Assembly (NCBI GenBank): GCA_026397475.1
Contig: JAPLUT010000007.1
Coordinates: 1-64,000, forward strand
Reading direction: 5' to 3'
Length of the DNA stretch: 64,000 nt
Origin: a candidate division SR1 bacterium
GTDB taxonomy: Bacteria > Patescibacteriota > Gracilibacteria > Absconditabacterales > Absconditicoccaceae
The position numbers and the translations under genes were made by a program. The number at the start of each line of letters is the position of its first letter. Position 1 is the first letter of the stretch. The notes under the pieces were generated by a model. That model saw nothing but the letters and a program-made list of their open reading frames with translations. It made no database searches and was not told the origin of the DNA. Below are positions 10,465 through 53,807 of this stretch, one piece after another.

Positions 10465-10516
10465 TGTCCTCCTTTATTTCAAAGGAGGGGGTACCCTTTA
10501 GGGTGGAGGATTTAAA
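10465..10516. repeat. GGAGGATTTAAAA repeat family, copy 1 (short)
   Basis: CCTCCTTTATTTCAAAGGAGG inverted repeat, then ACCCTTTAGGGT and GGAGGATTTAAAA. Longer relatives are at 27011-27114, 28828-28908 and 54781-54838, which also contain ATCCGC-atttc-GCGGAT. All are intergenic. Confidence 0.65.
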
Positions 10517-10523
10517 AAAAAAA

Positions 10524-10543
10524 CTAGCGAGAACACTCGCTAG
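10524..10543 (-). terminator. Terminator of the minus-strand gene at 10572
   Basis: CTAGCGAG-AACA-CTCGCTAG is a perfect 8-bp stem. On the minus strand it is followed by nine Ts, 28 bases after the stop of the next feature. Confidence 0.85.
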
Positions 10544-11074: not shown

Positions 11075-11160
11075 TTACCCCACTCTATCCCTCCCCATTT
11101 CATGGAGAGGGAACCTCCCCTCTCTACGGAGTGGAGAGGGGGTAGGGGGTGAGGTAACAA
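11075..11160. repeat. C/G-rich inverted repeat
   Basis: GTTACC at about 11075 and GGTAAC at about 11153 bracket a segment of CCCTCCCC / GAGGGGGTAGGGGG blocks that can fold back on themselves. The composition is much richer in G+C than the surroundings. It lies between divergent genes and may be a small non-autonomous element. Confidence 0.45.
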
Positions 11161-11198
11161 AAGCTTGAAAGTATGCACGAAAATAGTACGCTAGAAGC

Positions 11199-12878
11199 AT
11201 GTTTACAATCGAAACCAACAAAATACCAGATAATGCCGGAGTTTACCTGTTCAAAGACAGAAAATGAAGTATTTTATATATCGGAAAAGCAAAAAATCTC
11301 CAAAAAAGACTTTCACAATATTTCTCGCCCAACTCGCTTCGAAAACAAGAGATGCTCGAAAAAGCAGAGAAAGTCGATTTTCTCATCGTAAAAAATGAAA
11401 GCGAAGCGTTATATTTGGAAGATAATCTCATCAAACAACATCAACCTGAATATAATAATTTATTAAAGGCAGATAACAGTTACGTCTATATCAAAATCAC
11501 GAAAGAATCCTTTCCACAAATATTTTTAACCAGAAAAAGAATCAACGATTGAGCAGTCTACATCGGACCCAAAAACGATACGATTCAACTTAAAAAGTTT
11601 TTGCAGTATATGAGACAGATACTAAAATTTAGAGGCTGCAAACCGACAGAATTTAAAAAATGAAAACTTTGCTCCGACTACTATTTCGGCATCTGCGCAT
11701 GACGATGCAAAACAAATGTCACCCTGAGTGAAACGAAGGGTATAAAAAAATTATATTCTTCACTTCGTTCAGAATGACAAACAAAAAAAATAGAAGAATA
11801 CAAAAACATAATAAACACAATCACCTCATTTTTCAAATGAAATACCAAACCTATAGAGAAGGAAATTCACGAACAAATAGAAATCGCCATCATTCATGAA
11901 AACTTTGAACGAGCCGCACAACTGAGAGATATCTACCAATCATTACAATGATTCGTAGAAAGACAAAACGTAGTACTTCCAGAAAAGAAAGATGGCTATC
12001 TTGCTTTAGTCAAAACTATTTGAAACAAATATATTTACACGGTCTTGATATTCACACAAGGCAAACTCATCGATGTTATTACAAGTAAAGAACAGCACAG
12101 TGATATCGAAGAAGATAGTTTATATCTTGCGATTCAAAGAACCTTTGGAGAAGCGAAAATAGAAAAAAATAAGAACGAAGTTCTTATCAGCAGTACGGAT
12201 CTTGCTAAACTAGGAAAGACAGTAAAAAAAGAACTCTGGAAGTTAGCAGAAAATTTTGTGGAATCCTACATCATCACACAATCCATGCAAGAAGAAAGCA
12301 CTATGATCAATGATATGTTTGCAACATTGAAAACAAGGTATGGACTGAAAAATATGCCCTACAGAATAGAATGTATCGATATTTCTCATCTCAGTGGATG
12401 ATGGACAAGTGGCGGACTTTCTTGTTTTATGGCAGGCCTCGCGTACAAAAAATGATATCGCAAATACAAAATTAAAGCAAAAAAATCTGATGATTACGAA
12501 GCATTGCAGGAATTACTCGAACGTAGGCAAAAAAACTGATGAGAAATGCCAAATTTATTAGTTATAGATGGCGGAAAAGGTCAGCTATGAGTAGTAAAAA
12601 AACTCTGTAAGGAAAAACCTAAACGAAAAGAAATAGTAAGTCAGATTGATATTATTTCTTTAGGAAAATGAGAAGCAAGAAAAAAATCTTCAATCTGAAC
12701 CCAATGAAAGAAGGGAGAGATTTGAGAAATCATCTATCATTTCGACGAAAATCTCAAAATCCACGAAACAGATATGATCTATGATCAAGCAGATAAGATA
12801 TTGTTAAAAGCTAGAGACGAAGCCCATAGATTTGCAAATTCTTATAGAAAAAAACAAATGAGCCAAGAATTCAGATAA
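11199..12878 (+). CDS. uvrC: UvrABC system protein C
   Basis: UvrC makes both incisions in nucleotide excision repair. The 559-aa frame shows a GIY-YIG domain (NAGVYLFKD, SILYIGKAKNLQKRL), the Cys cluster FGICAGRC, a UVR segment (HENFERAAQLRDIY), and the RNase H-like half (IECIDISHLSGG, LLVIDGGKGQLG, DEAHRFANSYR). TGA codes many conserved glycines. Two oddities are visible. A 63-bp palindromic repeat (11717-11779) is inserted in frame after the Cys cluster. The protein also ends just after the DEAHRFA segment, so the usual C-terminal helix-hairpin-helix pair is missing. The start is ATG 11199, which gives the full GIY-YIG domain. Confidence 0.95.
11717..11779. repeat. 63-bp palindromic element inside uvrC
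   Basis: TGTCACCCTGAGTGAAACGA at the left and its near inverted complement (ACTTCGTTCAGAATGACA) at the right enclose an AT-rich centre. The length, 63 bp, is 21 codons, so the frame is kept. It adds about 21 residues, including one UGA glycine, between the RC of the Cys motif and the EEY helix of UvrC. Confidence 0.8.
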
Positions 12879-22360: not shown

Positions 22361-25300
22361 ATGAGCAATATCAACAATATCATAAAAGAGATAGAAAAGC
22401 TTTGAGAAACAGCCAAGACAGTAAGTGCTGTTACTAAAAACCTCAAAGCACTATTTTCCGAAACGACAGAAAAGGAAAAACAAGAGATAATGCTCAAACT
22501 TTCAAAAAGAAGAAACAAATACACAGAAGCCCAGAAGAAAAATTTAATGAATATAAACTATTTTATAGCAAGCATAAAATGCAAAACTAAAGATGAAATA
22601 AGCAAAACATTTGAAAAAAAGAAAGATAAAGAAGGAAATCGACTAGGAGAAAAAATCTTAAACATAGTAGAAAAGACCTGAGAACATACATGAAAGATCA
22701 AAGCAAAATTTAAAAACATTTCACGAACAAAGAAAGATAAGGTAGAAATAGGGAAACTTGAATCATCTTCAGAAAGCACAACAGAATTTGATAAACTAAC
22801 AAAATATCTGCCTCCTGAGTTTTTTTCAGGAAAAAAGAGTATTTGCTATCCATGATCTTCAATAGATTCTAGTTTTGCAGATACTATGGGGAAAAATGTC
22901 GTACATCTTGATAGAGACGCAAACGCTATCAAAATGCTCAAAAATCATGGATACAAAGCCATCAACGAAAACATTGAAACTCATAAAAAACAATATGACC
23001 TTGTTCTTGATAGCAGACCACAAGTAAACGCTGAATTCATAAGTAAACTCGTAAAAGCAGGTGGATATGTTCTCGTAGAAAATGCACACGCGCATGGAAA
23101 TTACTTTAACGATTCATATGAATACGAATTTATAGCAAACATTTCTACAGAAGAAACAACATATACAAAAGTTCCAGAAGGAAATCCATTTAGTTCTGGA
23201 GACACAGGATATTATCTTTTCAAGAAAAAAGAAAGCAATATAAAACCAGGAAAGATAAAAGCATTTTTTACAAACATCAAACGAAACAAAAACAATAAAT
23301 CAGAAAACAAAGTCACAACGAAAGAAGAAGAACAAGTAAATAAATGAGAAACGGAACAAGTAAAAACACGAGAAGAAATAAGTCTAATAGACGACACAAA
23401 GACGATCATAATTTCGGACAAAGAAAAAAGAAGCATTAATGAAAAAAAGGCAATCATAAATAAAAAAATAAAAATAATGGATAAACTAATCCATGAAACC
23501 AATATGGATTCAAAAGTCAATCCTCAAGACCTTTCTGGTCTTATGGAAAGCACAGGAAAAGCAAAACAAATACTAGAAAAAGAAACAATAGGTTCTAGAG
23601 AATTAGGAGAAGTAATCAGTAAAATTACACAAGAAATCAATACGTTCATCAAAAAATATCCTCAACACCTCAATATAACTCTAGGGAAAGAAAAGGAAAA
23701 ATGATTTTGGGAATCAATTAAAGAAAAAAACAATCTCATACGAGCAAAAAGAAATATAGAAAAACAATTAAAGTATATACATGGAATAATTTCACAAAAT
23801 CTAGCAATTTTGCCAATTGGTTCATCGTCACATCTATTAGAAATAATAAATGAAACGAGAAGTTTCTTAAAAACACCATGAATAACAAGCAAACAAATAC
23901 AAGAAAAATCACAAGAGTTAAGAGAAGCTTTTGAAGCAATTAAATTAATTTCTCCTCTTGAAGAAAATACAAGTTGAAAAGAAAGAAACAATAAAATTTT
24001 AGAAAAAAAGAAAAAAAACCTAAAAACATTAGTAAACATTGCAAGAAAGCTTAATGCCGAATTCCATTCGAAATCAAAAAACGAAGCACGAGACCTAGAT
24101 CTTCTAAATATAAAAAATAAGGCCTGAGATAGTGCACAAAGCGAATTTACCTCACTAGAAGAAATAAATAACCTAGAAAAACTATTAAAAATAGAAATAG
24201 AAAGAGTAAGAAAATTATTGGGCGTAAGAGTCGAAGTAAAAGAAAATAAAATAGCTCCCGAAGATCAGTTCACAGAAGAAGAAAAAAAGTTAATGAAAGA
24301 ATTTGAAAATAAATCCGTAGAAGAAATCAGTAAAATAGTTGAAAAAGAAAAAGATAATCCAAAGATGAAAAATTTATTTAATAAAATACGAAAATCAGCA
24401 CTTATTCTCTGAATTGCATGAGGCCTCATATGAGGAATTTATGAGATAGCCAAGAAAAACGCTAAAAAAAATAGAGTATATGAAACTGAAACCCCCGTTG
24501 ATAAAAAGATCATTAAAGCTCCAGAAAAAAAGAAAGATCAAGCAAAAAAATTGCCAGATGCTCCTCCACCTGAAGAGAAATTTAACGTAGAAAAACTTCA
24601 GAAACATATTCCTCAAAACAAATTAGAAAACATAGAATATCAAGAAATCATATCTGCAGTAGAAAATATATCAAACGCCGAGATCAAGAAACAAGTTACA
24701 AGCTTACTTGAAGCAGGCGATATCGTGGGACTTCAAGAAATGTATGGCATGAAAAGGAACTCTGAATATACTTCTAATCAAGCCAGAGGAATAATAGACC
24801 AAAACACACTCAATAAAATAAAAAACCCACTCTTTGGACTTAAGGGACAAGAACTATTAAATAACGCAGAGATTCCGAATGACGTCAAAGAAACCTACAA
24901 AAGCTTTCTGGACGGAAAAATATCAAATGAAGATCTAGCATACTTCATACTTTCCAAAAAAACATGTAAAGCATATCTCTTCAACAAAGAGCATAAACTA
25001 ATAAACGATCAAAAAATACTTATCGGAGAAAATGTAGGAGAAGAGTGAGAATTTACTCCCTATCCTTATTATAAAGTAAGTGATAATTCTAAGGTATATC
25101 TAAGGTCTCCCGTAATAAATAAAAATACACCAACAGGATTATTTACAACAAAAAAAATAATAGATATCGGAGATGATTTCAAGGTAGATGGACCAAAAAA
25201 AGGGATTAATATAATTCCGATTACGAACGATGGAGACGCAGAAGAAAGATTTAAATATCATCAATGGGGAATAGCAATTCACCCGATCTACAAAACCCCT

Positions 25301-25447
25301 GGTGATCCAGAAAAATATGAAAACGCGCTTAAATCAATTTGAATAGAAGACAATAGTGTTACGCATGGATGCCCAAACGTAGAAAACTTTGGTATCGTTT
25401 TTGATAATCTATCTCTATGAAGTAGAGTATATATTAATCACGAATAA
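22361..25447 (+). CDS. Methyltransferase-like / L,D-transpeptidase fusion (1028 aa)
   Basis: Residues 1-120 are helical. Residues 160-270 form a Rossmann-like, SAM-methyltransferase-type module (ICYPGSSIDSSFAD, NVVHLDRDANAIKML, YDLVLDSRP, VKAGGYVLVEN). Long coiled coils follow to about 670. A hydrophobic segment near 680-697 (ALILGIAGGLIGGIY) is the single membrane span. The last 190 residues carry a YkuD-type L,D-transpeptidase: His 974 in IAIHP and SVTHGCPN with the nucleophile Cys 1004. L,D-transpeptidases make 3-3 peptidoglycan crosslinks or anchor proteins to the wall. The N-terminal module would be cytoplasmic. A terminator follows. Confidence 0.82.
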
Positions 25448-25470
25448 ATCATAAAAGACAAACAAAAAAA

Positions 25471-25507
25471 ATTAGTAGAGAAGAAATTTATCTACTAATT
25501 TTTTTTA
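25471..25507 (+). terminator. Terminator of the 1028-aa gene
   Basis: ATTAGTAGA and TCTACTAAT form a stem with an AAATTTA-type loop, followed by eight Ts. Confidence 0.8.
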
Positions 25508-25544
25508 TATAAGTTTTTGTAACAACAGTTTAAAATTCAAGAAT

Positions 25545-40034: not shown

Positions 40035-43000
40035 ATGATTTGATCAAAAAAAGTTTTTGTACGAACACTTATTATTTTCTATGGAATATCCTACCTTTTG
40101 CAGAATACGCTTTTTGTAGATCGAAAAAAAGTATATGCTGCAGAAACCCCTAGCACAACAAACATTGTAGCGGTTTTTGTAGACAAAAATATCTATGAAG
40201 GAATCAAAACCAACCTTGAACGATATACTACAAGTTATATCCAACAAAAAATAGCTAATAGCAAAGCAGTAGTTTTTCCTATTGATACGACGACAATGAA
40301 GGCATTTGAAATTTCAAAAATGCTAGAAAATATGTATTTTGAATGAATCAAAGACCAAAGTTCAAAACTTGTAGGAACAATACTTATCGGAGATGTTCCC
40401 TTGCCAGTAGTACAAAACAATGGCTTTATTTATCCAAGTATTTTTCCTTATGTAGATTTCGAACACCAAGAATTTGTATATGATAGCAACAAAAAGTTTT
40501 TCGTATATAACGATAATCCAAATGGACAGGCGGAATTGTGGCATGGAATAATAAAATTTGATACCGCTCAGCAATACAATACCTTTTTTAATAAAGTAAA
40601 ATCATACAAAGAAAATCCTATAAAATTCATAGATAAGGCGATTCGATATGAAGATTTTATCGGGTTGAAAAAATATTTTATTCCAGAAAATACGAAATAT
40701 TATATCAACAACTTGTTGTTTGCAGAAGATATGGGATATCATAGATATAACAACCTTCTTCTCAATACTCTCAAGAGCGAACACAACGATAGCTCGCTTG
40801 CAGTAGGAAACGACTTGAAAGCAGATTTGCAAACAACTACCGATCCTGACCTCAAAGCATATGCCACAGATATATGATCTAGAAATGATCAGGCTGCAGC
40901 GACATCACAAGACGTAACTTCAAGTATGCCGACACTGACGCTCAAAAAAGCAATACAAGAAATGTTAAAATGATACGATGGGCTAATAAGCTCACAATTC
41001 TTATCAAAGATAAAAGACAATATCAACGGACTTGCGAGACGATATAAAACTACGGAAGGAGAAACATTTACCGACTACGGGTCACTTACCAATAAAATAG
41101 CACAAAAAGATAATCGACTTTTGTGAGATCCAGACAACAATGTACAGCCGCTCCTCATCCAGATAAATGATTTTCTAGAAAAATGACTCAATAATCAAAT
41201 AGAGCAAGAAAAATATTATATGACAATGCCGATACCTATAAGCGAATTAGACTTTGCAGGAGAAACAAGACGAGTACTGGGACTCAAACCAAAAAAAATA
41301 TGTACACGAAAAACATATAATTATTATGAAAATTATTTTTTCGGAAAAAATGCAAACCTTATAACAAGTGCAGGACAGACAAGTATATACAGAGGGACAT
41401 TTCAGAACTTAACTTCTATCGACAATCAAAGCATAAATAAAACTGGGCAATCCATAGGAGGATCCTACGATCTTTTTTCAACTCAAGTAGAGGCAAATAG
41501 AGGATATGATTTCAATACCACAAAAGATGAATTAGAGAGATATGCAAAATACAAAACAAACTATAGATCGCTTCGACAACTCAAATGTACGAACTACTTT
41601 TTATGATTAGAAAAGATATTGTGAATAGAAGGAATTTGTCTCAGTCCAAGATTTCGATCCGTTGATGATGGTCCAGATGAAAATAAATGTTATACTAATG
41701 ATCCAGAGAAACAGTGATGATGCGAGACTATGAATGAGTTTGCAGCAAGAAGTCGATGAGGAGCTTCGCCTATGAATATGGATTCTACGACACAAAAATT
41801 AGTAAATTATAATTATAAAAACGCAACGCAGCCGATATACAATATCGCATGATCCAAAAAAATAAATGTCGCTCAACAAGACGCAAACTCATATCAATGA
41901 GCGATAACTTATACCAACATCATTCAAAGAAAGTTTGGAGTCTGAGATTCCCAATATGGAAGCAATGATATCATGTCACTTATTTCCAATCCACAAAGCA
42001 ACGGAAGCAATCTTACATTTACCAACCAGCTTCCTGTAGGAGATCTTAAGAGTCCTATGCGAATACCAGTAAACCCAAAAACATATGCTCAGACAAACTT
42101 CTTTTCTCTTTTTTGAAGTTTACCAAACCACATAATAAACGCATGAAAAGCAGTATTATACAATGTAAATCCAGGACAATGTTGAGGAGATGGAAGCATA
42201 TACAAATATAAAACTATTGATTCTAGAGTAAAAAACATATCACCTACACGAGATCAGATTACAGATACGGAGTTTTATAAATTCAAAGACTCTTCGGATC
42301 TAGAGGTATTTTACAATGAAGTCATAAAAGATCTTGCACAAACAAAAACAGATATCTTGACAGCAAATACAGTGTTTAGTGGTACCGATAGCGCAGATAG
42401 AACATGAGTTATTTCTAATCTCACAAACCTCAAAACAATAGTCACGAAAGTAAATAGTGGTATGCAACAAATCATTGCATTCAATACAAACTTACTCACA
42501 GGATATAGTTGAGGACAAGTGACACAACTAGCAAACATACGAAGTTGAATTATGATAACTCCAAACAAACTTTTTGAAATAAACGATAGAATCATACAAA
42601 CCAATGAAGGACTAGATGTATTGTTCAACTATATCAATAGTTTGAGCATGAATACCGTTGCATTATCATTTGCTGGAATCATACAATCAGAAAATTTCAA
42701 AAATCAGAAAGTAGAAATATTGGACTCACGAAAAAGCAATATACTTCAAAACATGAACTATATCACAGCGAATGTAGCCACACTCAAATCAACATTTACT
42801 ACAGCACGATGAATATACAATACCATAGGACTTGTAAACAATAATCTTGCAATCATCCAAGCAAAAAGAGACGCAATAAATGCATTAGACGAATCTTGTC
42901 TTCCAAGCCTCTGTTGATGTGATATTAGTCATTATAAGCCCGTATGTGATGTATTGGACAAACTTATTGTGACCCTACAAACAGATTTAACTGCACATCT

Positions 43001-46000
43001 TGCAAATTCTGGAGTCAACGACAAACTGACTGAAATAGCCCAATACCAATCAAGCAATGGAATAGTTCATCCTCTTTTAGAGATAAATCAAGCATTCTCT
43101 CCTGCCAAAGTATTGGGAGAAATGACTCAAGTAAAGAGCACGATGAACGCCTTTGATGTTTCATCCAATCCCGATAAGAAAGAAAAAAATAAAGGAATGA
43201 ATCTGACAACCCAAGATAGACCGATTGATAATATCAGAAATATAACTTTTCAAGGTGTGGGTTGAGATATGGTAAGATTAAATTATGTAAACCTCTACGA
43301 AGTTAAAACGTACAAAGAAATAGATGGAAAGCTTGAATTAAAAACGCCAACAGAAATTAGAGAAGCAATAAAAAAATATTTAACAGACAAAGCGACTGAA
43401 TATAACACCTTGCTTGAAGCACAAAAAAACAAAAAAAATCAATGGTACCAATCCTATAGCAGCCAATTTAATCTCTTGGGACAAGTAGATCCTCTAGCAA
43501 ATCCAAACACCCACAATTACAATCTCATCCCAACGGATTACTTTATCAATCAGTTGATAACATTTTTAGATACCATAGAAAACAGTCCTGAATACGGGAA
43601 AAAAGCTATTTACGGAATAGCAAATTCAGCAACAATAGATGACAAACTAGATATGATAGCAAAACTCCTCTACTATCAAAACATTACTTGGCCAGAGAGA
43701 TTACAGCAAACAAGTGTAGCAGGAGACATAGAAGAAATAAAATCCAGTTTTGATGTAAATAGAAAAATAAGTAATATAGTAAATACCTATCTTACGGAAT
43801 GAAGCGATCAAGGTAAGTTTATTACTCCGATATATAACACTACATGATATGAGGTCGGATATATAAATTCTGATGGTGAAGATTATGTTTCATCAAAACC
43901 ACTGCCATCATTCATCCAACAGATTCAAGCTGCACAAGAAAAATCAACCAGCAAAACAAATACACCCGCAAACGCATTTAGAGAAACGACATCAAGTTCT
44001 GATGAGCTTCAAGCTCAAGCAGACAGCTGTGAATGAGTAGACGCGCAATGAGTTTCCTTGCTTTTCGATATCAGTACAATGAGTTCTCCATGGATGAAAG
44101 CGATGAAGTGTCGATGAAAACAAATTCTAAAAAAACCATTCGACATCAAGATAAGTTTTGCTAATTCAGTAGGACCAATAGTTACAAATACAATACAAGA
44201 CACACAAAACACGATACAAAATACGGAAGCACAATGGAAGCAATATGGATCACAACGAACGGCTCCAAACAATGACGATATCATCAACAACGCGCCTGAC
44301 GGCATAAAACAGAAATTACAATGATACAATAACTCGGCAATCATAAATATAGACAAAACAATTGTCGGAGTAGACGACTCAGGAAGCACCCAAATCAAAG
44401 TAGGTATGACCGACAACTTAGGAGACATCAACGTAAAAATATCATGAACAGGAGACAATTGTTTCGCTATAAACAGAAACAAGACAGTGCTCAGCGACAA
44501 CATTTGTACCAAACCAGCAAAAGAATTTTATAATCCAAATACCGACGAATACGTATTTGATAGCATAATAAAACAAAAGAAAGCGTGAGTTACAACAATA
44601 AAGATAGAACTCTGTCCTGCAGGATCAAATATTTGTATAGTCAAACAACAGGTTATAAGCATTCTTCCTGGTCCTATAAAAACAATAACATTACAATCAC
44701 CTACAGATATAGTTATGGAATGAGCAGAACTTCCTCTAGTAGTTTATGCGGCAGACAAATACAACAACCAAATAGGCCAAAATATCCAAGCGTATACAAT
44801 TAGCTTAGGAAGCGGTAATGGGAAAATTTATGATGGAACAAATGAAAATTCTAGTATCAAATTCGACAACTTCCTCCAAGCATGATTCATATATAGAGCA
44901 CCTACAGGAATCCAGGCAAACGAAGCAGTAACGATAACAATAGCTCAAGACCAATTAAAATTATTATGAACAACAGAGAAACCAAACGTAGTACAAAAGA
45001 AGATTATTGTTGCCAAAGGCATAGTAAATGTGCTCAATAAAAATGTAGTAATATATACAAGTAATACTCCAAAAAATACACCACAACAACTGACATTTAA
45101 TTTACCAAAAGACGAAACAGACATTCAATATCAAGACGAGAACGGAATTTCTGAGATTAAACCAGAAAACATTCCAAGCTTGGTAATCACTATCAAAGAC
45201 AAAAATGGAAACAGACTTGATACGGTAGCAAACATAACAAGCAAAGAATGATTTTTATCCCCAGGAACAACAAAAGATAAAACAATTACAAAAAACGGTA
45301 TCACAAAAAAACAAACATTGTTTAGTCCAGGAAATGATTTTATCATCAAAGACGGACAGCTAAATATTTCATTATATCCAAACTTCAAAGCAGGAAACGA
45401 TGCCATTACGATAAACATTCCAGGAATAGATCCTATTATCATACCGATAGTAGTGAATCCAGGGACAGCAAAAACGGTTATACTTCAGCTAGAAAAAAGC
45501 AGGATGGACTTTACTACCACAACAGGAAGTAAATGAACGATCCACGTAGTAGATAGCTGGAACAATAATGTTACGAGCTGAACAACCATAAAATTATGAG
45601 TAATTTGAGCAGCAAACAGCAGCGTATCAGAATTCAATTATAATGGAAACGAATACACGTATATGCTCAGTGCAAAAAAGCCAGGAGGAGAATGATATGT
45701 TTTTGCTTACATCAAAGAAAGAGCTCTTTCTGATCAAACGCCAGGATATGAAAAATTTATAGTACAAGAAAGCATTCTTCCAAAAGAAAAACTTAATGTG
45801 ATGTACCTCAATCTTTTCTGAACAGATCGATGAAATCAACGATGATATTTTTCTGAAAACAATAAAATCATAAATACCATAACCAATCAATCAAATAAAT
45901 TATTAGCTACAACGACGGAACTCGTAGATCCAAGTAAAATCAAACAAATAGAATTTATTCTAAATCCTCATGGACAAATCCAAAGTATCAACAACAAAAC

Positions 46001-49000
46001 AGCTACGCTTACGATAGAAAACAAAAAAATCATAGGAACACTTCCAAACATCGCAAAAATAGATTTATGATTAAGCAACCAATATAAGATCCAAACACTA
46101 ATAGATAGTTGAGCTATATCAGAATTTAAAAAAGACAGCAACACCTTAATATATATAGCAGAACCTACGGATAGTATTATCTCAGGAAACCAAGCAACGA
46201 CAACAAAAGTAACTATCAATGGTATCGACGTAATTGATATAAATAAATGAAATATAGATCCCAACATCACAATTATCGCAGACAATGAAATCCTGGGGGA
46301 TATGAGCATCTACACAATCAGATTCAATGGAACAACAATAGGAAAATTTATGCTCTGGAATAATGGAAATATAACAAGTGATAAGACACATATCAATCTA
46401 CAAGATCCTGCAACATATGGAATGACGAATATTTTTAGCGAAGGATCTACAAATACTCAATGAATATGAATTTATATAAATTGAAGTGCGTTTACTAAAC
46501 AAGGATATCAGTCTATCGAAGATAGTACTGACGCAATGCTCGGTATAGGATTTACAAGCAACTTCAAAAACGTATCGAATTTCGCGAATGGACAATCTGT
46601 AGGAGAAGCGACACTTCCATATGGATCACAATTTCTCGTAAACTTTGGAGATCCTCTTCTTGAAAGAAAAGAAAACAATCCAAACATACCCAACACAGAT
46701 TTTGATGCGTCAATCGGACAAACTATTTATGCTGATCCCAACAAAACGATATTCAAGGTGATTCCGATCGATTTCAATAATGATGGAGTAAAAGATCTCA
46801 TAGTTGTATATACCGATGGTGTAGTTAAACTTTTAAAGAACTATGGAGGAAATGTTCCTTACAAAGATCTTCAAGAACTTATGATTATAGCAGAGCCTAT
46901 CAAAGAGATTAAAATAGGTGATGTAGATGGAAATGGATATGAAGATATATTTATTATAACAAACAACAACAAAGGAATAGTATATCTCAACAACAAAGGG
47001 GTATTTGCTGTTGATGGAAAAAATATATGTTTAAATATAAACACAGAACCAGGAACGAAAAACCCAATTCCTGACAATTTTGGAGGGATCCAACAGCTCT
47101 TTGTACAAGACATGAATCAAGATGGAAAACTAGATATCGTAACGAACGATACGTATAATGATGTAAAAATATTTTATGGAGGAAGTACAAACAATTGAGC
47201 AAATTACGTATCATCTACGACTTGAATTTGTGATAGTCAACGATACGAAAGACAAAAGAATAATTATAAAACCGTAAAACGCTTTGGAACGAAAATAAAC
47301 AGCAGTCGATATATCCAAGACACGAGTCTTATTCATCGAAAAGGTGAAACAACGTCGACAGAAGGAGTTACAGAAGAATTAGATACCGAAGCTCCAGATA
47401 GCGCAATAGGAATGAGTAAGGATCAAGTAGACGCACTCAAAGATCAAACAATGAATGACGTCAAATCAATGATAGCAAACAACGATACCTATGTCGCTGC
47501 AGGAAGCACGCAACTAGCATACACGGACAATCCTCTTTCTACTGCTCCCGTATACGAATCACTTCCTCCATCAGAGATATCATATCTTCCCATCAACGAG
47601 ACAAATGATTTTGTAAGCGTATATAAAGAATATGTAGATATCAATGGTTGAGTTTTAAGAGAAAACGATGAGGTCGCAATTCAAACCACAATCATTTCAA
47701 AAAAGAATAACAACAAATTAACGTATATAGACGAGCTCAAATGACCACGAAGTCTAGCTACAGATCCTGACAACAAAATTAGTTCATTTACCCTCCTATC
47801 CGGAGACACAAATAAATTAAATATCGATCGAAAAGGTCCAGAAGGATATCAATTTGTAATAGACAATATACAGCTTGATTCCGGTCAAAGTTTAAGCTTT
47901 TCATATACCGCAAGATACAAACAAACGACACCAACGACAAAAATTGATGTTGCAGATCAAGATCTTATTACGCAAAACAAACACAAAGATACCTATCCAG
48001 ATATCACGATAAATAGCATGGATGCCTGTGTAAAAAACAGATGGATTCTTTTCAACACAACAGCAGGAAATAAAACAAGCTACGAACAAGTATACGACGA
48101 TATTCAAAAAGATATGAATGAGTATAATAGCTGAGCAAAATCAACACAACAAAGCGCAATGAATGGAATGGTAGATCAACTATCGAGTATAGATAGCTTA
48201 GATGCAGTATCGACATTGCCAGGCATGGATTCTTTAGAACCACGAAGCTCCAAAAATTTAATGTCTTCTCTTACTCAAGAAGTTACTCCATGAGAGATTA
48301 TTCAACCAGGATGAGTATGATTAACGATAAATACAAGTTTCATAGACAACGCAACTGCAAAAGTTTCCAAAAAAATGGATGCAGCATTAGAGGGACTTTG
48401 CCAATGATTCAAATTATGAAAATGATGATGTCAGTGACTTCCAGTTCCGTTTAATCAAGCATTCTTAGCGCCAGGAGATTATCATGTTTTCTGATGTGTG
48501 CCCAAGTTACCAAATCCTCTATATGCAGCATTCAAGACACTCAATAATACTTTAGGGAAAGGAATGCCATTACTTACTATTCCAGGAAATCGATGACCTA
48601 CTGCAGTAGGATATCTTCCTATACCAGGAATATTTTGATATCCATTCAAATGAGCAACAGACTGATTTTATTTGTGAAATCTCTGATGAACCTATCCCTC
48701 ATTATTTAGGCTTTATATAGCTCCTACACTGACACTTGGACTAGGAATAGCAATGTGTTTTGGTCCTTATACCGTAGGTAAAGCATTACCAAAACCATTT
48801 AGAGATCTCTGAGGAAACTGTGTCGTCTTTGCGGTACCACCACTCACAAAATGCACTCCTGACAAGGCAGGATGATGAGATGATCAGCCTAACCAGGAAA
48901 GCTTATGATCAAGTATGGTTGCAGCAGCTGGACAATGAACATGTAATAATCCGCCAAGAATAGGAAACAGTATTGTATTTGCTAATGGCATAGAAACAAC

Positions 49001-52000
49001 AGTAAACACATCAAATTCACCATTTCAAATGGTAGCAGCATGATCATCAGAAAACAATCCGCCTTACTCAGCAGCTATACCTCAAGGAAACTTTGGATGA
49101 TTAATTTCTATAGATCAAGATCCAACAAGAGTATCAGCAGCAGAAGATTATGGAAATGCAACACAACAGGCACAACTATGAATAACATCTGATGGATTCG
49201 ATCTCCAAAAATGAGAAAAAATAAATCTCAAACTTTTATGAGCAAAATGAAAAGGACTCGTAAAATGTGTAGTACAAAAATGGATGACAAGTCAGATACA
49301 ATATATTCAAAACAATCTGACCAAGATGACAATCCAGGTAGATCTCCCTGATCTAAGCACAGTATTTCAATGATTTGATAAAATCGGAAACTTATCAGAA
49401 ACCTATAACGCAATCAATGAACAAGATCAAGCGGCAGGATACATTAAGAGCACAAACGGACAATGAATAGGTTCTGGAAATAACTGAACCCAATATCTCT
49501 CCAAACAACAGCTCAACAACATCTCACAAAAAGCAGGAAGCAATCCATTTGAAGCTATACAACAAATGTTTAATGAAGTCCCACTTATAAACATAGATTC
49601 CAAAGATGTTAATATCAAGATACCATCACTTACCATCGATGACATCAAAAAATATCAAAGTTATCTTACGCTATGGATAGCAAAAAATGGACAAATAATA
49701 GATGATTGGACAAATATGTTCAATCAGATATTAGCAATATGTGGAACGATAGATAAGCCTGAAGCACAAAAAATACATGATGACCTCACGGCAGCATTGG
49801 CAAAGATTCCAAGCGGCGGAATTAATGATAACATAAAACAAGAAATACAGGTAGAGATTTCGAACATGCAAAAAATCATAGATAAGACAGGAGCACAGAC
49901 ACAAAAACAACTAGCAGCCGACATCAGCAAACTCACAGAAAACTTAAATAATACCATCACAAGAATAGCTACCCTACCAAGCTGGAAAGCAAGACAAGTG
50001 CGACTGGAAGGCAAGAAAAAAGTAGCAACAACACTGGGAAATACTTTTGACAACCAAGCATTGCTTGATCTGACAAACGTAAAAGTAAAAAGTTTAGAAC
50101 AATGTGCGGGTGTTGCATGATCTCTAGATGGATTTATTAAGTTCAAAGAAAACAGTGCATGACTTATAAAATCAATCAAAGAAAATATCAAAGTTTTGGA
50201 TAAATACAAGGAATTCCCAACACAATTATATGAATGGACCCATCTCACAGACAGATACCTCACAGAGATCTCATCATTACTTTCAAGCTTCGTAGGATCA
50301 ACAACATCATGGCTCAATACCAACGCCAATAGATTCTCTCAATATGTAGATGCAATAGTTTTATTGGTAGGAACAATAAAAACACGACAAGCGATTATAG
50401 ATTTCTCTGTCAATCGATCAGAAAAATGTTCTAAATGTAGCAACGATAACTACGGATCCTTTTCATGTAGTCTGTCATTCCTTTGTCCTAAATTACCGAT
50501 ATTCCCGATTCCTCCATTTAAGATACCAAGTATATATATGGATATGTCACACATAGATTTGGGAATGAATATCGTTCTGCCAAAAATAAATTTTGTACCT
50601 ATCAAGATACCATTACCACAATTACCAAACCTCCCAGAACCACCAAGTATAGAAGTAAATTGGGATGTTCTCTTTGGATTAAACCTAGATTTCTTCAAAA
50701 ATATTTCATTACCAACGGTTCCTGTAATTCCTGGCCCACCAACATTACCTGAACCACCATCATTTATTCCAACGGTAAAAATGGATTTGCCGGTCTTACC
50801 ACCTGCACCAAAGATTCCAAAAATAGCGCCTGATATAAAGATAGTTCTCAATGTAGCAAAATTCATATGAAAGGTTTTCTGTATCATTAAATGAGGTATT
50901 GGTCTCGTAGGAGAGAAATGAGTAAAATGAAAGATAGAACAAATAACTCAAAGAACATGGAACGTTCCTATTTTTGATTATTTTAATCTGACAACAAAAT
51001 TCAAATCTCCTCCTCTTCAATGATTTGATTACAAAATGGACGCATATATGACACTCAAATTCAACTTTGATGGAGTATACGATGTGTTCAATAGTATCGC
51101 CAGCGCAAGCAACAAGATTGTCTCACAAGTAGTAGAAGCACCAATCCAACAAGCGGTAGATCTCACAACAAACACACTCAATAACAATGCAGTAGTAAGC
51201 TGACTAAATACAAATCTTGATCAGAACATTAATTTCAATGGATACCATAGCAACGAATGAGAGACAGGTATGATAGAATATAAAACTGCATATGATGAAT
51301 TGAAAGAATGATTAATAAGTTTCAAAAATGCAACTCTCGAGGATAAAAACATGAACAACAGAGTAAAAACAATCTTAGCGACGGTTGACAATAAATCAAT
51401 GATTTTGCCAGCTACGAGCCAGATCCAACAAGTAGAAAAAGAAGCCAAAGGGATTATATCAAAAAAGATAAAGGAAAATCAAAACTTATCAAATGATATA
51501 AAAAATTACGATACCTTTATCAAAACAATTCAAAATAACGAAGTCGCGTTAGTCGCAGAAAAGACATTATCTACAAGCTTAAAATCACCATTGCTTACGA
51601 TAGATTCACCTACAAAAAATATATTACAATCACAGGAAGATCCAAACAAGAGCTATCTCTCACTCAATAAGAGGATGGTGCAATGATACTTAGATGCTGT
51701 AAATAATGATGGCCCAGAAAAGCTTAACATGTCACAAACAACGTATAATAAATCAAAAATCTATCTAGAAAATACCAAAGAAAAAATAGATACTGCACTA
51801 TTAGCATACAACGATAAGCCGCTTCTAGCACAGACAACATGTACCAACTGTACAAGCAATGCAACAGAAAACAATAATTACAGCGCAGATATGTCTGCAT
51901 ATGTAAATGGAGTTTTCATTGCATCGTATAGTGGAAGCCAAAAAAACATGATTAACACCGTCACCTCAGTTGAACAATCACAAAACGTACAAAAGACATA

Positions 52001-53807
52001 TATGACAGATTTTGATCTCAATAATGATAAACTTCATGACATTCTTATGTATGACGCAAACAGTATTTATATTAAGTACGCAAAACAAGAACTTGAGCAC
52101 TTCTCAAAAGGATGAGCAACATTGACTAAACATTACAACACATTCTATAGCTATGCGACAGAGCATCAAAGCACACGAATCAATCCACAAAAGCGATATA
52201 TCGAATCCCTAGATCAACTCAGCAACAACACAGATGCTTATGGGTACCTTACAATAAACAACATCACGATCAAAGTGATGGACAAAAACACAGAAGTAAA
52301 AAACTTTAAAACAGATGGACAAAGTTTCGACACCCTCCAACTTTCATGGAAAAATAGTAAAATCATAGGCGAAGACGTCGATGGATATCTCATAAAAGTA
52401 AGCAACAGAGTAGATAGTAAAGATATGCCAAGTAGCTTCCGATCTTTCTTATGAGGAGGAGAAAAACCAAAATATATTGTGGTGCTTCCAAAAGATACAG
52501 ACTATAAAAAATGATTGCTCACTATTGATGAAAATCTACTCAAGAAACCAATCAATCTGCAACTTGGACAAAACATTCTTGCCGTAGAATACTATGACGA
52601 AGCAAAAGACAAGATTAATGTAACACTCAAAGATCTCCCAAGAGAATGGTTATATACGAGCATAGCGACACTCAAGATAAATCAAAAAGAATTGTCTAGT
52701 AGTCAGCAAAAAACACTTGTCTTGTATAAAAAAACATCCTCACGATCAAATCAAACCGTCGCAGGAATGCAAAACCTAGGAGATACAACTGCTCCGGTAG
52801 GAGACGTTATCTTATGGAGAAATGTAACAAGTGAGGCCATAAGCACAGGGCTTGTACATGAAGGATATATCAATACTAGCTACACCCTAAAATCAATCCG
52901 GACAGACAATGTAATTGTTGCCAAAATGATTATCCAAAAAGATGGGAAAACTCTTTTGGAAAAAGACAATCAATCTCAAACTGGAACAATCGATTTAGGA
53001 GGCCTCTTCTTTACGGGAGATACAGAACAAAATTTCGACTTCATAGCAATCGATCAAAATAACAATATCACGAAACAAAATATAAGCGTAAACATTGCAA
53101 CACCAGATATAGAAGTCCTTGATGTCAAAAAAACTTGAGAAGCGACTGCCGATATCATAGCAAAAATTAGCAATGATTTGGATGAGGGTATGGTAATATT
53201 CCAGAGATTAAGAAATGGAATCCGAAGCAATATCAGTGGTTCAAATCAGAATACTTATGGTGGATTTGATCTTTCACCCAAACAAACAATAATAACATGA
53301 GGAATATTTACGATGGGAGACGATATTGGACTCTATGACAATCAAAACAACGAAATAGCTACAATAAATTCAAAGACCAATGAAATAAAAATAAAAGCAT
53401 GATTTGAAAATAAATTTAAGATTAATCTAAGTTTTACAACCCACATTCCTGTGGTAGAAGTAATAGATACAATACATAACGTAACCCTCTTCCAAATAGT
53501 TCTCCCTATACAATCCATCAGCAATATAGAGATGAATCAAGGCAAACCCAACTATGAAGAGCTACAACTTACAGACGGGCAATTTGGTGACTTCAACAAT
53601 GGATATTGTGTCAAAAATATAAAGAATGATTGTATCGTATACACCAACAAAGCATGAGCGATATATATTCCTTGAATATATGCAAATTCATTAGTAGGAC
53701 AGTACGTCTTTGATACTACGACAAAAAACACTAAATTTATTGTCAAAGATCAGTCCAATCAAGCAATTACAACGTTCACAGTTCAAATCAAACCAAGCAC
53801 AAAATAA
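40035..53807 (+). CDS. Giant secreted surface protein (4590 aa)
   Basis: One frame without TAA or TAG for 13,773 bp, with well over a hundred UGA glycines. ATG 40035 is the only usable start: TAA 40014 lies just upstream. A hydrophobic signal segment (LIIFYGISYLL) opens the protein. Residues 30-170 contain LVGTILIGDVPLPVV and SIFPYVDFE, resembling gingipain-like (C25) N-terminal parts. Residues 2240-2370 hold three FG-GAP/VCBS-type calcium loops (DFNNDGVKD, DVDGNGYED, DMNQDGKLD), with a degenerate relative near 3990 (DFDLNNDKLHD). A glycine-rich hydrophobic stretch lies at 2885-2915 and a Pro-rich region at 3475-3610. It is probably exported and surface-bound, perhaps an adhesin. Confidence 0.9.

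Follow-up and report, generated by a model that had tools for sequence, protein, structure and literature searches.

In this work we find that the uvrC gene of the window (the whole 64,000-nucleotide stretch that was analysed) carries in frame a 63-bp element, which we read, with a probability of about 0.8, as a head-to-head dimer of TGTC-tagged REP-type units that inserted into a disordered UvrC linker without a consistent target duplication and that would be translated and nearly neutral. The initial annotation had described a near-palindrome of this length at 11717–11779, lying in frame between the cysteine cluster and the next helix of UvrC and adding 21 codons with one UGA among them, and our analysis bears out each of these points. 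The gene and the parts of the element are as follows.

11199..12878, + strand: uvrC, 559 amino acids under code 25, with the Pfam domains GIY-YIG (residues 13–86) and UvrC RNase H (residues 380–546).
11717..11779, no strand assigned: TGTC-tagged REP-like head-to-head dimer, 63 bp, TGTCACCCTGAGTGAAACGAAGGGTATAAAAAAATTATATTCTTCACTTCGTTCAGAATGACA, encoding UvrC residues 174–194 (VTLSETKGIKKLYSSLRSEGQ).
11717..11741, + strand: unit 1, TGTCACCCTGAGTGAAACGAAGGGT, a hairpin with the stem ACCCT/AGGGT, a G.A tandem, GT/AC and a GAA loop.
11742..11754, no strand assigned: A/T-rich 13-bp spacer of the dimer; the spacer length differs among other dimers.
11755..11779, − strand: unit 2, TGTCATTCTGAACGAAGTGAAGAAT, a hairpin with the stem ATTCT/AGAAT, a G.A tandem, AC/GT and a GAA loop.

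The 21 inserted codons are in phase with uvrC and contain a single TGA, at residue 193. In the AlphaFold model of UvrC (mean pLDDT 80.9, pTM 0.49) they fall between the cysteine cluster (CxGRC, residues 166–170) and a helix that runs from residue 184 to residue 212, and pLDDT drops below 50 only at residues 174–180 and 493–507, both of them among the four insertion sites of the protein described below. Reading the genome in code 25 (UGA = Gly), as the initial annotation had assumed, is supported by the RNase J of the window: in table-11 relatives, the residues aligned with its TGA codons are Gly in 58 of the 88 cases without a gap, and the remaining 30 are scattered. In table 11 the frame of the insert reads VTLSETKGIKKLYSSLRSE and then a stop, the frame in use halting at the UGA, and of the six possible frames of the element table 11 leaves one open, code 25 four. 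The mean number of open frames over the 39 dimers considered below is close to that of shuffled sequence under either code, which suggests that the benefit of recoding comes from composition, the element having no special design for it. The window also contains a single ORF of 4590 codons (40035–53807) with 103 UGA codons.

On either side of the insert, dN/dS relative to the nearest sister genome, G002, is about 0.1 (dN 0.153; dS 1.52, near saturation), which indicates purifying selection on both parts of uvrC. The initial annotation had suggested testing whether the copies in genes are multiples of three; over the dimers as a whole there is no such tuning, as 13 of 39 have a length divisible by 3, the chance expectation. 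Since the lengths are not tuned to three, the frame would be kept by selection on the gene and not by a property of the element. Because the genome is an 8-contig draft, and because most of the related genomes were assembled from metagenomes, an artefact of assembly or binning has to be considered; it is hardly credible for an insert that lies about 500 bases within one open frame, on a 105-kb contig, with conserved uvrC in the local code on either side.

The element is an imperfect inverted repeat with 42 symmetric positions out of 63. Since each half forms a separate hairpin, the mismatches occur as doublets, and these differ between the two halves. Symmetry of this degree is unexceptional by itself, two other 63-bp stretches of the window reaching 46 and 44 positions. 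The stretch that reaches 46, the highest value in the window, is 25454–25516; it lies 7 bases past the end of ORF 22361–25447 and is probably a terminator. A unit consists of the TGTC tag, a 5-bp stem (A5–T25 to T9–A21), a G.A tandem, the pairs 12–18 and 13–17 and a GAA loop, and its core resembles the stable DNA mini-hairpin GCGAAGC. Folded as RNA the whole element reaches −23.1 kcal/mol (z = −5.7), a value equalled by none of 200 shuffles, and folded as DNA it has a z of −3.0, equalled by 2 of 200 shuffles. The lone 25-nt units of the uvrC element fold weakly as DNA (z = −1.4 and 0.2), and the evidence for the hairpin of the unit is for this reason its covariation. In 77 units, selected with the constant letters fixed and the N positions free, the pairs 7–23, 12–18 and 13–17 are Watson–Crick in 74, 74 and 68 cases, against maxima of 56, 53 and 50 in 2000 shuffles that ignore the kinship of the copies. 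A selection on the left arm only agrees with this result: 111, 91 and 91 of 161 units are paired, for shuffle maxima of 93, 75 and 68, kinship being ignored here too. Position 6–24 is T-A in 72 of the 77 units and C-G in unit 1 of the uvrC element, while A5 and T25, being fixed by the search pattern, give no independent evidence for the A-T start of the stem. Searching Rfam near the element returned nothing at or above the gathering score. Just upstream of uvrC lies a long G+C-rich imperfect palindrome (11080–11162) with an RNA fold of about −45 kcal/mol (11078–11165), for which Rfam matches are far below gathering scores.

Copies of the unit were counted by pattern and similarity searches, together with the stretches around the matches. 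When up to two mismatches are allowed, the unit pattern TGTCANNCTGANNGAANNGAAGNNT has two matches in the 1.17-Mb genome, which are the two halves of the uvrC element, and the reversed pattern used as a control has none. In addition to this full dimer, a degenerate dimer is present in the genome (G000) on contig C3, at about 254543, and a single unit at C7:5777; so low a copy number counts against our reading of the element. Among the genomes of the family, 29 of 49 have units (≤2 mismatches, near-zero controls), with a maximum of 76 matches in G066, and units are present in 26 of 145 genomes sampled across the phylum (≤1 mismatch, zero control matches). Both halves of the uvrC element start with TGTC, and CGTC variants of the tag are seen in G028, G032 and G076. 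The sequence stretches analysed contain 39 distinct head-to-head dimers as well as single units, and the bases that follow the units are mostly ATA or CTA. In the stretches fetched around matches, most units lie between ORFs and a minority within long ORFs, the Pfam assignments of which are HemN-like, PriA, HI0933-like, polysaccharide pyruvyl transferase, Dus, Tex, IF-2, SecA and UPF0004/radical-SAM; these intragenic units were called from ORF spans and Pfam, a codon-usage filter being too strict, as it missed uvrC itself. Two TGTC dimers (L117:7870–7947 and L083:1451–1525) enclose another palindrome (CCTGCC...GGCAGG; TCCCGACGGGTCGGGA) and are thus nested repeats. The wide variation in linker length within the family could suggest that we are dealing with an ordinary variable linker of UvrC whose symmetry arose by chance. 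This idea is refuted by the recurrence of the unit in the family and the phylum, with control matches near or at zero, and it fits neither the RNA z-score nor the covariation; we regard it as virtually excluded.

No target duplication is evident over the 39 dimers, the direct repeats that flank them having a mean length of 2.49 bp, compared with 2.34 bp in mispaired controls. The uvrC copy lies between two AAACAAA direct repeats, inside an A-rich tract. These repeats and the terminal inverted TGTCA/TGACA are reminiscent of a DDE-type MITE, a terminal-inverted-repeat element mobilized by a cut-and-paste transposase that leaves a target-site duplication. Such an origin is nevertheless quite unlikely, because the flanking repeats, taken over all dimers, do not exceed those of the controls in length, because single units are also found, and because the compensatory doublets that give each half its own hairpin are not required by a MITE. 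A REP-type dimer may instead move as single-stranded hairpin DNA. Y1-transposase genes are present in the genome itself and in 14 of 48 others, and at least two units are found in 13 of the 15 genomes with such a gene versus 11 of the 34 without (Fisher p = 6 × 10−4, uncorrected for kinship). No unit occurs near the 8 Y1_Tnp genes inspected over about 1.5 kb per side where the contig allows. The Y1 (IS200-like) transposase gene at L112:1492–1944 (G000, C2:76949–77299) lacks TGTC units within 1.5 kb in either direction. Since a Y1-transposase gene is missing from several genomes that are among the richest in units (G066, G028 and G069), we claim no mobilizing enzyme.

The linker between the cysteine cluster and FFKG varies among the sister genomes, and its length varies widely across the family. 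It contains the TGTC dimer in G000, a CTCC hairpin in G002, G005 and G007, and in G006 an in-frame CCTCC...GGAGGATTT repeat, which has 3 further matches in G006 and 9 in G000. The linkers of G004 and G008 contain a CCTGCC-containing stretch and an AAGTCCC-type stretch, whose status as dispersed repeats was judged by eye. In G022, which belongs to another genus, the linker holds a CGTC-like heterodimer; related matches number about 40 in that genome, and one of these lies farther on in the same uvrC. The linkers of G001 and G033 are short and have no insert. The window carries an intergenic copy of the G006 repeat, and three other sites of uvrC that are empty in G000 are occupied in relatives.

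10468..10526, + strand: intergenic copy of the CCTCC...GGAGGATTT hairpin repeat, the one found in frame in the G006 uvrC linker.
12165..12224, + strand: uvrC codons ~323–342, empty in G000; occupied in frame by a repeat in G017 (TGTCATTGCGAG... unit) and by a hairpin repeat in G005.
12483..12530, + strand: uvrC codons ~429–444, empty in G000; insertions in G022 (half of a CGTC-like repeat), G007 and G008.
12675..12719, + strand: uvrC codons 493–507, a low-confidence loop, empty in G000; insertions (at ~505) in G002 and G008.

Of the 9 genomes of the genus, 7 have matches to the G002 repeat at ~505, and in G005 a match lies in uvrC. Several repeat types have used the UvrC linker within the genus. 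As for the element itself, it is absent from the sister uvrC genes, G002 carrying a different insert and G001 none. The initial annotation had considered that relatives might carry the same residues devoid of symmetry at the DNA level, and no relative examined carries these residues. Because the linker differs in every sister, their uvrC genes provide no exact empty site for the element. In a tree built from RNase J, UvrB-N and UvrC, G000 groups with G002 (support 100), within a clade that includes G005, G007 and G008, and G001 comes next; together with the linker comparison, this points, as the simplest history, to an arrival of the TGTC element in uvrC later than the divergence from G002. 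In this scenario the dimer would have entered the linker between the cysteine cluster and the UVR helix, and its 21 codons, with UGA read as Gly, would be translated in the cell into a flexible linker and an extension of the next helix. UvrC would remain functional and the insert would be nearly neutral to the host, as expected of a selfish or passively spread element that is tolerated in a disordered linker, the most likely reading.

Two genes, UvrB-N and RNase J, were used as a small control. The UvrB-N orthologues of the genus have no internal insert of at least 8 residues, with one of 11 residues in G017, from another genus, and the RNase J inserts all lie in a proline-rich N-terminal tail, apart from one of 12 residues in G015; none of them look repeat-derived. 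In this family uvrB appears to be split into an N part (TIGR00631 positions 2–443) and a C part (429–657) encoded by distant genes, at C8:67214–68692 (L312) and C3:212258–212947 (L313) in G000. The two parts are about 97 kb apart in G013 (L314/L315) and about 241 kb apart in G017 (L316/L317), and as both are single-contig genomes the split is not a contig break; in most other families of the class uvrB is one full-length ORF.

The repeats could also be functional additions to UvrC maintained by selection, for example by tuning the contact with the split UvrB or by forming an RNA hairpin that regulates the uvrC mRNA. This would account for the strong RNA fold and for the recurrence of repeats in UvrC loops of the family and not in UvrB-N nor, as repeats, in RNase J, and intragenic REPs have often been reported in Uvr/Rec genes (PMC3733652). 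However, the inserts of sister genomes are unrelated in sequence, G001 and G033 do without any, the sites are low-confidence loops and the other unit-bearing ORFs have varied functions, all of which makes this proposal very unlikely. One may also propose that UvrC is a preferred and not merely a tolerant landing site, where unrelated hairpin repeats keep arriving at the same loops and displace each other, possibly owing to their mode of spread or because altered excision repair is favoured, with UGA = Gly opening more frames; we consider this unlikely.

As a REP-type dimer, the element is closest to the CGTC-tagged REPs, which carry the unpaired tag at one end, with TGTC and CCTC as variants, form head-to-head dimers that are often heterodimers, have no dedicated transposase and count among their members RPE-4 (a CGTC-4 REP) and RPE-6 (a CGTC-1 REP) (PMC3733652). 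These REPs are mostly intergenic, with a minority in genes, nucleotide-excision genes among them (PMC3733652). The units described here share with them the TGTC tag, a stated variant, the A-T, T-A start of the stem, the head-to-head heterodimers, a mostly intergenic location with some copies in genes, repair genes included, and, as far as the 8 inspected Y1_Tnp genes show, a location away from transposase genes. In contrast, the CGTC-tagged REPs have a continuous stem of 8–9 bp, a loop of 4–5 nt and a short tail that is mostly CCA, whereas here the stem is 5 bp, a G.A tandem and 2 bp, the loop is 3 nt and the tail is mostly CTA or ATA. Because of the misfits in stem continuity and in the CCA tail, we name the element CGTC-REP-like and assign it to none of the four published families. 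Patescibacteria are not named in the abstract or the phylum list of PMC3733652. In two Xanthomonas species, different REPs occupy about the same site of recB (PMC3733652), which is the closest parallel to the UvrC linker. Querying the literature with the sequence of the element itself returned unrelated papers only.

The initial annotation had compared the element with the palindromic elements of Rickettsia, and the comparison holds in a refined form, that of a repeat-family element in frame in a conserved gene and built as a head-to-head pair of hairpins. RPEs are 105–146 bp long and are found in frame in Rickettsia genes (PMC2229807, a review). The position in frame inside conserved genes is common to RPE-4, RPE-6, the longer RPE-1 and the present element, a likeness by description, translation being predicted here; in contrast, the Rickettsia host is unrelated, and the present element has 63 bp instead of 105–146 and a frame that needs UGA = Gly. 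REPINs depend on RAYT transposases and GTAG-type REPs, whereas here no unit lies beside the Y1-transposase genes examined. What is shared with REPINs, as they are outlined in PMC3116915, is the pairing of two inverted REP hairpins, which in their case act as one short mobile unit.

In-gene repeats of this kind were already known, and what is unusual here is the UvrC hotspot of unrelated repeats and the dependence of the frame on UGA. The present case places REP-type hairpins in the reading frame of a conserved gene, in a bacterial lineage with a small genome and a recoded UGA, where the standard code would stop the frame. As the UvrC loops concerned hold different repeats from one sister genome to the next, these genomes form a natural comparison set for distinguishing tolerated noise from targeting, a question that dates from the first description of intragenic REPs in repair genes.
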